DNA of 64,000 nucleotides. Source: Acinetobacter tianfuensis (GTDB lineage Bacteria > Pseudomonadota > Gammaproteobacteria > Pseudomonadales > Moraxellaceae). This document shows, piece by piece, positions 55,814-59,782 of the stretch. Location of the stretch: NCBI RefSeq assembly GCF_003611465.1, contig NZ_RAXV01000006.1:39945-103944 (forward strand), read 5' to 3'. The notes under the pieces are model-generated. The model made no database searches and was not told the DNA's origin. It saw nothing but the letters and a program-made list of their open reading frames with translations. The position numbers and the translations under genes are program-made. The stretch's first letter is position 1; every line of letters starts with the position of its first letter.

Positions 55814-58800
55814 TTAACTGATCCCAAGCTTTTCCCATAGTTTTTGCAAACGGGATGGAGAAATTGGCATCTTGGTTTTCATCGGCTGAGAAAATAATGA
55901 GATGCGCAATTCCTCAACCATGAAATACAGTTCTTTCAGGCGAATATCGTTTTTGAACTTAAATAATTTTTCCATCCATGGGTCAACTTGATCAATGGCA
56001 GAATTATCCCTTTGCAGATTATTTGGTAAGCGCTCCAAACGCAACACCAGAGCCTTTAAATAGCGTGGAAATTCTTGCCAAATATCAGCAGATTTTACAT
56101 ATACAAAATCCGACAAACTCATCAAATCCAGCTGATCTTCAATGTCATCAATATTTTTTCCAAACACAGAATCGTCTAAAACCAATAGTTTCCGACGTAT
56201 ATCCTGCCATTGAATGTAAATTTCACTCAGCATAGACAAAGCATGCTGACCATGCATCAAGAAAGATTTCTTTACATTTAAAACGAGGTTTTGATACTCT
56301 TGCTCATTGACAGGAAGCTCATTTATTGAAAGCTGAAGTGTGGCATAAACTAACATTTGCTCTAGTTTGGCTTTGTCACCTAGCGGTGAATAAGCCAATG
56401 CCAAGGGTTTAGAAATCTGTTTTTTCAGCTGACGAACCAAGTCACCCAGCTGCATATGCACAAGACGAATCACACCTTCGCGGTGCTGACGGACAGCCTC
56501 TGTCTGATCATTAAATGTCTGAATAACCACACCAGATGCATCTTTTTGCTCAAGCAGCGCAAAGTTTTTAGCCGGCACCAAAGCCTGATACTGTTTCACC
56601 ACCACACCAGTGACTTTTTGTGAGGCTTCAAACACAAAAGTTTCAGGAAAATTGTTAAATTCTCCTTTCAGCTGTTTGACAGGGCTGTGTGTTTCTGTAC
56701 GGCAACGGGCTTTGAGTTCTTCCAAATCACGGCCCTGCTCAATCACACGGCCCTTTTCATCAATCACTTTGATCAGCGGCAATAAATACTGTTCCACCCG
56801 CTCCCAAGAAAAATCTTTTCCTGTAATTTGCTCTCCGCGGAGCTGGAATGCCAAGAAACTGAAAATATGCTCCCGCAGATGCACCGCATCAACACGATCC
56901 ATTAATTTACGGGCTGTATCAGGTATCGGTACTAAATGACGGCGTTTATCTTTTGGTAATGCTTTAAGTAAAGCTTCTATCAGCTCTTGGCGCCAGCCTG
57001 GTATCCCCCATGACCAAATATTTTCATCCACTTGCGGCAAAGCCTGAATTGGAATTTTGACTGTTGCCCCATCCTCATCATGACTTGGATCAAAACGGTA
57101 GCTGGCAGCCAAACGGAGTTCACCATTACGCAAGAAATCAGGTAATTGCTGCGTCGTTGGGCGGTCATTCATCCATAATGCATCATCATCAATAAATAAA
57201 TGACGCGGATCCTTCGGTTCAACTGTTGCGCGCCAGTCTTCAAAACTGCGGCGGCTTGCCACCTCTTCAGGCACTTTAGAGGCATAAAATTGATAAATCG
57301 TTTCTTCATCCACCACCAAATCACGGCGGCGAAGTTTATCCTCTACGCGCTCAACCTCCTCAAGCTTAAGTAAATTATGCTTTAAAAATGGCGGGGTCGT
57401 ACCTAAATTACCCGTAGTTAAAGCATCGCGCAGGAAAATTTCATGCGCAGCAGGCTGATCAACCTTTTCATAATTAATCGGACGCTTAGGCTCAATAATG
57501 AGGCCAAATAAAGAAATTTGGTCATAAGCATTGACCACACCTGCCTTTTTCGACCAATGCGGCTCAAAGTAATGATGCTTCAGCAAATCGCCCGCAGCCA
57601 ATAAAATCCACTCAGGTTCAATTTTCGCCAGCGTTCGAATATATACCTGAGAGGTTTCGACCATTTCAAAGGCTATTACCCAAGGCGTATTGGTTTTATG
57701 CAAAGTCGATGCTGGGAAAATACGCGCTTTTTGCTGACGTACTGCCATAAACACATTGCGCTCATCTGTTTTATTCGCAATGAAGGACAGCAAGCCAGTT
57801 AATAATGCCCGATGCAGATTTTCATAATTGGCTTTCTTTTCATTAAAAGACAGTTTTAGGCCTTGCGCTAAATCGACCAATTGCTCATGGGTTTTCTTCC
57901 ACTCACGTAAACGCAGCCAGCTGAGAAAATGATTACGTGCAAACGTCCTGCGCTTGTTTTCGCTCATCCCCTTATTTTCTGTCAAGGTTTCCCATAACTT
58001 AATATAAAACAAAAAGTCCGAATCAGCTTCACGGAACAGCGCATGTTTTTGGTCTGCCTGCATTTGTTTGTCTGCAGGACGCTCACGCGGATCTTGCACC
58101 GCAAGAGCCGCTACAACCACAAGCACTTCGTTTAAAGCGCCAAAGTGCGCGCCGCCCAAAATCATCCGTGCGAGGCGCGGGTCGATTGGCATTTTTGCCA
58201 TCTGTTGACCGATTTTGGTTAAGGAATCTCCCCCAACCCCTCTTTTAGAAAGAGGGACTTTTTCAGCTCCCCCTTTTCCAACAGATGAGGCGTTGTTTGC
58301 CGCAAGAGGAGGATTTGATTTACGTTCAGAGAGCGCCCCAAGCTCAATTAACAGCTTACGGGCATCATTCACCAAACGATGATCTGGCGGCTCAATAAAA
58401 TCAAAGTCTTCTAATTCACCAAAGCCCAAACTTTGCATTTGCAAAATAACCGAAGCCAAGTTGGTGCGCTTAATTTCAGGTTCAGTAAACTCTGGGCGGC
58501 TTTGAAAATCTTCTTCGCTGTATAAACGAATACACACACCCGGCGCAATACGGCCGCAGCGGCCTTTACGCTGATTGGCCGCTGCTTGTGACACCGCTTC
58601 AATTGGCAAACGCTGTACACGGGAACGATAGTTATAACGTGAAAGACGGGCAAAACCGCTATCAATCACATAACGGATATTCGGAACAGTTAATGCCGTT
58701 TCCGCCACGTTCGTGGCAATAATAATGCGCCGTCCGCCACCTGACGGATTGAAGATTTTTTGCTGCTCACTCAAAGCCAGACGCGCATACAGCGGCAGCA

Positions 58801-59782
58801 CTTCAGTATGCCGCGGACCATGCTTTTGCAATGTTTCTTGCAATTCACGAATTTCTTGTTCGGTGCTGGCAAAAATCAAAATGTCGGCATGTTCAGGATG
58901 GCCTTTTTCCTGCGCATCTTGAAAACACTCTTCTACTGCTGAAACCACAGCCCGCGGCAAGTTTTCTTCAAAGTCATCAAATTCATCATCATCACTGCCG
59001 CCAATACTGAGTTCTGAAATTGGGCGGTAACGAAGCTCCACAGGAAAACTTCGTCCTTCGACTTCAAAAATCGGCGCGCCATTAAAGTAATTGCTGAAAC
59101 GGTTTACATCTAAAGTTGCGGAAGTAATGATAACTTTTAAGTCTTTGCGGCGCGGTAAAAGCTGTTTCAGATACCCCATGATGAAGTCAATATTCAGTGA
59201 ACGCTCATGCGCTTCATCAATAATAATCGTATCGTATTTATTTAAAAAACGGTCATTGGCCAATTCCGCCAGTAAAATACCGTCTGTCATCAAACGCACG
59301 ATCGAGTCTTGCGAACCTTGTTCATTAAAACGGACTTTAAAGGAAATCGACTCCCCCAGTTTTTCACCGACTTCTTCGGCAATACGCTGTGACACGCTGC
59401 GCGCAGCCAAACGGCGCGGCTGAGTATGTCCAATAAGGCCAGTTAAGCCGCGTCCAGCCAGCATCGCAATTTGCGGCAGCTGCGTGGTTTTACCCGAACC
59501 TGTTTCGCCTGCAACAATAATCACTTGATGCTGCTGAATCGCTTCAATTAATTTATCTGCATACTGAGTTACAGGTAAATCTTGATTCAGTTTAATATTT
59601 GGAATTTTAGAAATGCGCTCACGCACTTTGGCATTTGATTTCTCAAACAGCTCTTGGTACTGCGTCTCATTAGCATCTTTCCCTTTTTTGAGGCGACTTA
59701 AACGATGACGGTCACGGACCATCACCAGCTGTTCTGCATGAAAAGGACGCTGCACTGAGAAAATACCCGTAAGAAAAATCAA
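55814..59782 (-). CDS. hrpA: ATP-dependent RNA helicase HrpA
   Basis: A DEAH-box RNA helicase, which in E. coli helps resolve stalled ribosomes. The 1322 residues have motif I VAGETGSGKTTQLPQ near 93-107, motif II IIIDEAHERSLN near 187, and motif VI AANQRKGRCGRIAPG near 400. The winged-helix and helicase-associated domains follow, with LTKIGQQMAKMPIDPRLARM near 520, and a long C-terminal extension runs to 1322. The open frame begins at TTG 59782; GTG 59755 and ATG 59722 are alternatives, and the LVMVRDRHRLSR block favours an upstream one. A stretch of about 31 residues near 489-519 is foreign: it is encoded by a palindromic repeat (see that entry). Confidence 0.93.
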   Translation of the reverse strand: MIFLTGIFSVQRPFHAEQLVMVRDRHRLSRLKKGKDANETQYQELFEKSNAKVRERISKIPNIKLNQDLPVTQYADKLIEAIQQHQVIIVAGETGSGKTTQLPQIAMLAGRGLTGLIGHTQPRRLAARSVSQRIAEEVGEKLGESISFKVRFNEQGSQDSIVRLMTDGILLAELANDRFLNKYDTIIIDEAHERSLNIDFIMGYLKQLLPRRKDLKVIITSATLDVNRFSNYFNGAPIFEVEGRSFPVELRYRPISELSIGGSDDDEFDDFEENLPRAVVSAVEECFQDAQEKGHPEHADILIFASTEQEIRELQETLQKHGPRHTEVLPLYARLALSEQQKIFNPSGGGRRIIIATNVAETALTVPNIRYVIDSGFARLSRYNYRSRVQRLPIEAVSQAAANQRKGRCGRIAPGVCIRLYSEEDFQSRPEFTEPEIKRTNLASVILQMQSLGFGELEDFDFIEPPDHRLVNDARKLLIELGALSERKSNPPLAANNASSVGKGGAEKVPLSKRGVGGDSLTKIGQQMAKMPIDPRLARMILGGAHFGALNEVLVVVAALAVQDPRERPADKQMQADQKHALFREADSDFLFYIKLWETLTENKGMSENKRRTFARNHFLSWLRLREWKKTHEQLVDLAQGLKLSFNEKKANYENLHRALLTGLLSFIANKTDERNVFMAVRQQKARIFPASTLHKTNTPWVIAFEMVETSQVYIRTLAKIEPEWILLAAGDLLKHHYFEPHWSKKAGVVNAYDQISLFGLIIEPKRPINYEKVDQPAAHEIFLRDALTTGNLGTTPPFLKHNLLKLEEVERVEDKLRRRDLVVDEETIYQFYASKVPEEVASRRSFEDWRATVEPKDPRHLFIDDDALWMNDRPTTQQLPDFLRNGELRLAASYRFDPSHDEDGATVKIPIQALPQVDENIWSWGIPGWRQELIEALLKALPKDKRRHLVPIPDTARKLMDRVDAVHLREHIFSFLAFQLRGEQITGKDFSWERVEQYLLPLIKVIDEKGRVIEQGRDLEELKARCRTETHSPVKQLKGEFNNFPETFVFEASQKVTGVVVKQYQALVPAKNFALLEQKDASGVVIQTFNDQTEAVRQHREGVIRLVHMQLGDLVRQLKKQISKPLALAYSPLGDKAKLEQMLVYATLQLSINELPVNEQEYQNLVLNVKKSFLMHGQHALSMLSEIYIQWQDIRRKLLVLDDSVFGKNIDDIEDQLDLMSLSDFVYVKSADIWQEFPRYLKALVLRLERLPNNLQRDNSAIDQVDPWMEKLFKFKNDIRLKELYFMVEELRISLFSQPMKTKMPISPSRLQKLWEKLGIS
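58225..58316 (-). repeat. Palindromic repeat element inserted in-frame in hrpA
   Basis: About 92 bases that begin AATCTCCCCC and end GGAGGATTT (imperfect terminal inverted repeat), with an internal stem CCCTCTT/AAGAGGG. It encodes a Gly/Ser/Asn/Lys-rich peptide containing KVPLSKRGVGGDS between HrpA blocks that are adjacent in relatives (LIELGALSE and LTKIGQQMAK). The reading frame is kept. It looks like a miniature dispersed repeat of the CCCCCTAACCCC type, but no second full copy lies in this window. Confidence 0.7.

Follow-up and report, generated by a model that had tools for sequence, protein, structure and literature searches.

The window analysed here is a 64,000-nucleotide stretch of the Acinetobacter tianfuensis genome, and its minus strand carries at 55814–59782 the gene hrpA for the ATP-dependent RNA helicase HrpA, listed with a TTG start and a product of 1322 aa. 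Within the HA2_N winged-helix domain of this protein, an in-frame stretch bracketed by the motifs ELGAL and LTKIG forms an expanded loop of 36 residues (HrpA residues 485–520; 58223–58330, minus strand). This position is occupied by 6 residues in 39 of the 81 rows of the HrpA comparison, and in the E. coli HrpA chain by 7 residues between the same aligned blocks (chain 477 to 485; query 486 to 520). An initial annotation had described here an in-frame palindrome that lies between adjacent HrpA motifs and adds about 31 residues. The inverted ends, the inner hairpin and the open hrpA frame bear out the insertion, while its size is corrected to a net gain of 30 residues over the common 6-residue form.

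The palindromic element itself spans 91 nt (58225–58315; C73:98169-98259 in the genome), and the minus strand, the coding strand of hrpA, gives the best score. Its inverted ends are AATCTCCCCC (from 58225) and GGAGGATT (to 58315). The hairpin of its second half, CCCTCTTT-TAG-AAAGAGGG, is read directly from the letters at 58238–58256, with no strand assigned; allowing up to two mismatches, it occurs once in the window, compared with a mean of 0.00 in 100 shuffles. The first half has a variant tip of the form CTTGCG-hairpin-CTCA, with a 3-bp stem GGC/GCC (58286–58306, minus strand). The same tip, nested in a half-element, is also seen at loci L012, L059, L103, L159, L163, L177, and L259. The sequence of its inner stem changes and pairing is often kept: the stem has at least 3 bp in 12 of 24 matches to a pattern that also picked up unrelated sequence.

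When the 95-nt hrpA stretch is folded alone, the result is mildly unusual (z of −1.8, with 10 of 200 shuffles folding equally well), so the case for the element is carried by its further copies, not by folding energy. From 19 other copies, a set without the window copy, a covariance model was built, and its sole match in the window was exactly 58225–58315 (37 bits, E = 3.8e-8). Identity with a known RNA family was considered and rejected, the best Rfam match having an E-value of 8.4.

A two-hairpin repeat family

Copies in the window genome and in its relatives follow a common plan, in which a head of AATC and a C-run is followed by hairpin 1, a spacer of variable length, hairpin 2, and a tail of a G-run and GATT. 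The full element is about 70 bp long, and examples of the two enclosed hairpins are TCCCCCTTT-n3-AAAGGGGGA and CCCCTCTTT-n3-AAAGAGGGG. In its hrpA form the element has one open frame that gives a hydrophilic peptide such as NPPKSPFDKGALQKAPLSKRGVGGDS (L011). The 19 copies aligned for the model were picked as complete and short-spacered, not at random; four of them are hrpA copies of other species, two are smc copies, and three come from the window genome. In this alignment 93.3% of cells are paired (88% in the outer helix, 96% and 97% in the two hairpins). Double-change cells number 16 versus 6.4 in shuffles, with none of 500 shuffles as high; pairs with a double change show no excess (5 versus 4.2), and further pair types are below the shuffles (17 versus 20.1). 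The hairpins of the element are plain, and the support from covariation is moderate.

The model has 31 matches in the window genome at E ≤ 0.01, which represent 17 places because the palindrome matches on both strands. An E-value below 1e-4 is reached at twelve of these places, and the other five hold half-elements or degenerate copies; three of the 17 are also among the copies used in the model. According to the open reading frames, 16 places are intergenic and the remaining one is that in hrpA; one of the intergenic copies, upstream of purD, is overlapped by an antisense ORF only. The element is thus a multi-copy palindrome that also resides outside genes, and the further copies that the initial annotation proposed to look for do exist.

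Across Acinetobacter, matches occur in 49 of 59 genomes, with 1 to 59 per genome when both strands are counted, and the element is an Acinetobacter repeat family. Some intergenic sites are filled in several species, with the same flanking sequence beside an element in either orientation; shared sites are found at L136, L144, L149, L156, L219, L222, and L226 near position 1501, and also at L137, L145, and L155. These shared copies are either old insertions or further hot spots. Beyond the genus, the 26-aa peptide of the element matched none of 273 other genomes of the class at E ≤ 0.01. Look-alike in-frame peptides (e.g. NPPQSPFTKGGNSPLFKRGVRGDF), known from protein sequence alone, are present in NuoG-like P0004, UvrC-like P0006, and DnaX P0007, and they suggest that related coding palindromes may occur outside Acinetobacter.

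We infer active mobility of the element. Target-site duplications at its edges, which the initial annotation had suggested looking for, are not above chance: duplications of at least 5 bp were found in 4 of 47 flank pairs, compared with a shuffled mean of 2.3 and a largest value of 8, the 47 pairs excluding the window copy, which did not fit the pattern used. In this respect the element differs from a transposase-mobilised MITE. The Y1/RAYT transposase (Y1_Tnp) was also rejected as the mover, since none is present in the window genome and high copy number is reached elsewhere without one; it is over the cut-off in 9 of 59 Acinetobacter genomes and absent from seven of the eight genomes with at least 50 element matches.

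The HrpA loop and a second host gene

The HrpA comparison comprises the window and the best 80 of 419 relatives. The loop has exactly 6 residues in the 39 short rows and 15–96 in the other 42, and it is the only large internal block of length variation, apart from length differences in the N-terminal part and gaps of one and four columns. A conserved gene thus stays open over its 1322 codons with the element in place, and 39 of the 81 orthologue rows are without it. The expectation that most orthologues would lack the insert is met in part by the short rows; the 42 longer ones mean that it is not specific to a strain. Neither a segment common to all orthologues nor a genome with a single copy, the two outcomes named at the outset as speaking against the palindrome, was observed.

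At E ≤ 0.01, the model recognizes the element inside the loop of 15 of 41 long-loop loci and of the window (16/42), with the loops of L011, L015, and L051 also being among the 19 copies of the model. None of the 39 short loops matches at this threshold, and nor do 26 of the 42 long ones. The motif AATCYYY is present in 22 of the 42 long loops, with 42 occurrences altogether. Of these, 28 begin at a codon start, 13 correspond to the inner arm, which lies 10 nt later, and one to a degenerate inner arm. Neither head nor tail of the element is found in 18 long loops, which weighs against an origin from the element as far as those 18 are concerned. The longest loop, with 96 residues in HrpA of A. 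piscicola (L037), contains two model matches plus, by eye, part of a third copy; the linkers GNAKEQ and DSAKEQ are similar, and the arrangement resembles a tandem duplication within hrpA. The median number of element matches per genome is 29 in 34 long-loop genomes versus 3.5 in 24 short-loop genomes, uncorrected for kinship and with genomes classed by whether a single tblastn match spanned the insert; such a difference is predicted from element supply alone.

The structure of HrpA residues 420–650 was predicted with AlphaFold2, using an alignment of 44 of the 81 rows. The mean pLDDT is 67.6, and values below 50 are found for the insert residues 489–518 and also for model residues 1–4, 7–15, and 145–167; in a moderate model with low values elsewhere too, the low confidence is a weak indication of disorder. 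For the insert, the prediction is a disordered, floppy loop exposed on the surface. The best Foldseek matches to the model are E. coli HrpA structures, with a TM-score of up to 0.56 and a disome-bound structure among them.

Two reading frames of the element were searched as peptides in 38 genomes, and in-frame copies were found only in hrpA and smc. The forward peptide has 94 matches in 17 of the 38 genomes, of which 11 fall within long stop-free frames, nine in hrpA (eight genomes, assigned by position) and two in smc. The reverse-frame peptide has 140 matches, likewise in 17 of 38 genomes. Apparent reverse-frame coding copies in long frames of G012, G023, and G014 and in a 167-aa frame of G009 were rejected, as the element precedes the apparent gene start; a further match (G011:C2:3008) lies in a frame of 446 aa at an E-value of 0.9.

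The second host gene answers the suggestion of the initial annotation that other proteins might carry the element, although neither this gene nor the recurrence at one site had been foreseen. At least nine of 149 Acinetobacter genomes have copies that fall in a variable SMC segment, a lower bound from 30 examined loci of 148 that matched. The element replaces about 15 residues of this segment and gives 26–38. By model score, six copies are forward, two reverse, and one undecided, two of the forward ones being among the 19 in the model. Both orientations and chimeras are seen at smc loci L162, L163, L175-L183, L241-L245, and L247. The smc tree requires seven changes. Between L245 and L249, flank identity is 66% in the last 50 nt and 94–97% further out, whereas the flanks of L162 and L246 stay alike; such shifts indicate that tracts were moved by recombination in some pairs, which explains part of the pattern. 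Recombination can spread filled alleles, as in smc.

Origin of the HrpA insert

With a probability of roughly 0.8, we conclude that 58225–58315 is an in-frame copy of the 17-place two-hairpin repeat, which was likely inserted into an hrpA loop that was probably filled several times in related species; its predicted translation product is a disordered segment of about 30 residues. The nearest neighbour in the tree, A. gandensis (L009), carries a loop of 29 residues in which no element can be recognised, and this counts against any firm dating of when the window copy arrived. It is highly improbable that the loop is a low-complexity tract grown by slippage that resembles the palindrome by chance. 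The long loops have many S, K, G, N, and P residues and several have no trace of the element, but the complete loop elements of L011, L015, L051, and L037 match intergenic copies with E-values no weaker than 1e-17, the window copy reaches 3.8e-8, and slippage is refuted for the 16 recognisable loops.

Repeated filling was assessed on a quick maximum-likelihood tree of HrpA, made with the loop excluded and costed for gains and losses on a midpoint root. At least eight gains or losses are needed, six of them forced by well-supported branches, and a single gain requires 17 losses. If each gain is charged as three losses, a long loop at the root comes out slightly cheaper (14 versus 15), so it is likely, and not proven, that the hrpA loop was hit repeatedly by the element. 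The best fresh gain is L059, whose long loop is nested in a clade of short loops. In the 100 nt that flank it on either side, the six most similar rows are all short-loop, and identity in the left flank falls to 78–86% in the last 50 nt. L049/L051 is a less clear case with an ambiguous left flank. Among other genomes of the order, 52 have a match and not one of these aligns across the insert, and the short loop therefore looks ancestral.

A single old insertion in the Acinetobacter ancestor, followed by repeated losses and interspecies recombination with no hot spot, is an account that we consider unlikely, if worth weighing. It draws on the cheaper long-loop root, the recombined smc tracts of L245 and L249, the ambiguous flank of L049/L051, and the orthologous intergenic sites that retain copies in several species. 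It would have to accommodate 17 losses, each back to exactly 6 residues, in 39 rows, as well as the ancestral appearance of the short loop in the order and the flanks of L059, which follow short-loop relatives. Recruitment of the insert, with selection maintaining it and with an effect on how HrpA binds RNA or the ribosome, is improbable: its peptide lacks conservation, loop sequences drift until they are unrelated, and the 39 short rows do without it, even though it lies in a winged-helix domain, a disome-bound structure is among the best fold matches, and long loops persist through whole clades.

Returning to repeated insertion, the proposed course begins with what would be a selfish, non-autonomous palindrome that resides mostly between genes and likely enters the hrpA loop in frame. 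Frame-keeping insertions in the winged-helix domain would probably survive because the loop appears to be unconstrained. The inserted sequence then likely drifts, leaving mainly extra length and a hydrophilic loop, as the 26 unmatched long loops suggest. We read the element as selfish DNA that supplies raw loop sequence, with no benefit to HrpA implied. More tentatively, and at somewhat short of even odds, the wing loop may be a true hot spot that captures the element repeatedly, with recognisable copies in the same frame; mobile DNA would then be a standing source of a fast-evolving loop, and the near-symmetric element would code both ways, as in smc.

Relation to known palindromic repeats

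Protein-coding palindromes are best known from Rickettsia. Acinetobacter, a genus that is not obligately intracellular, shows the same in dozens of named species: one gene has both occupied and empty sites, copies range over every stage of decay, and a second gene holds the element in either orientation. How selfish DNA becomes protein sequence, and why a single loop accepts it time after time, can thus be tested by comparison and in laboratory strains. A literature search, with most subscription journals outside its reach, turned up neither a description of the element nor one of palindromes in hrpA or smc of Acinetobacter, in agreement with the initial annotation, which knew of none for hrpA in this genus.

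Among small repeats, REPs are described as sequences of 20–40 bp tagged GTAG or CGTC and reported within replication and repair genes (PMC3733652). The element shares with them small, G + C-rich hairpins in chiefly intergenic locations; it differs in its ends, AATC...GATT, with no GTAG or CGTC tag in the 19 aligned copies by eye, and from RAYT-mobilised REPs in the absence of Y1_Tnp from the window genome. MITEAba12 is 111–114 bp long with ISAba12-like ends and 9-bp target duplications (PMC6382973). The likeness to it and to other Acinetobacter MITEs is that of a small, non-autonomous repeat with inverted ends, whereas the present element has about 70 bp and no target duplication above chance.

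The parallel proposed at the outset was that of the Rickettsia palindromic elements (RPEs); a multi-copy palindrome family, its in-frame HrpA copy, RPE-like behaviour, and the absence of the insert from many orthologues are all supported. RPEs are described as long stem-loops of 105–146 bp that fall into several families, and 19 reading frames are reported to carry them in frame (PMC2229807, PMC10969869). The Acinetobacter element is set apart by its length of about 70 bp, its two hairpins, and its mostly intergenic copies, when compared with the size and plan of RPEs as described there. What the two systems have in common is a palindromic repeat that lies both between genes and in frame within conserved genes, where it is read through, with translation in Acinetobacter being predicted only.
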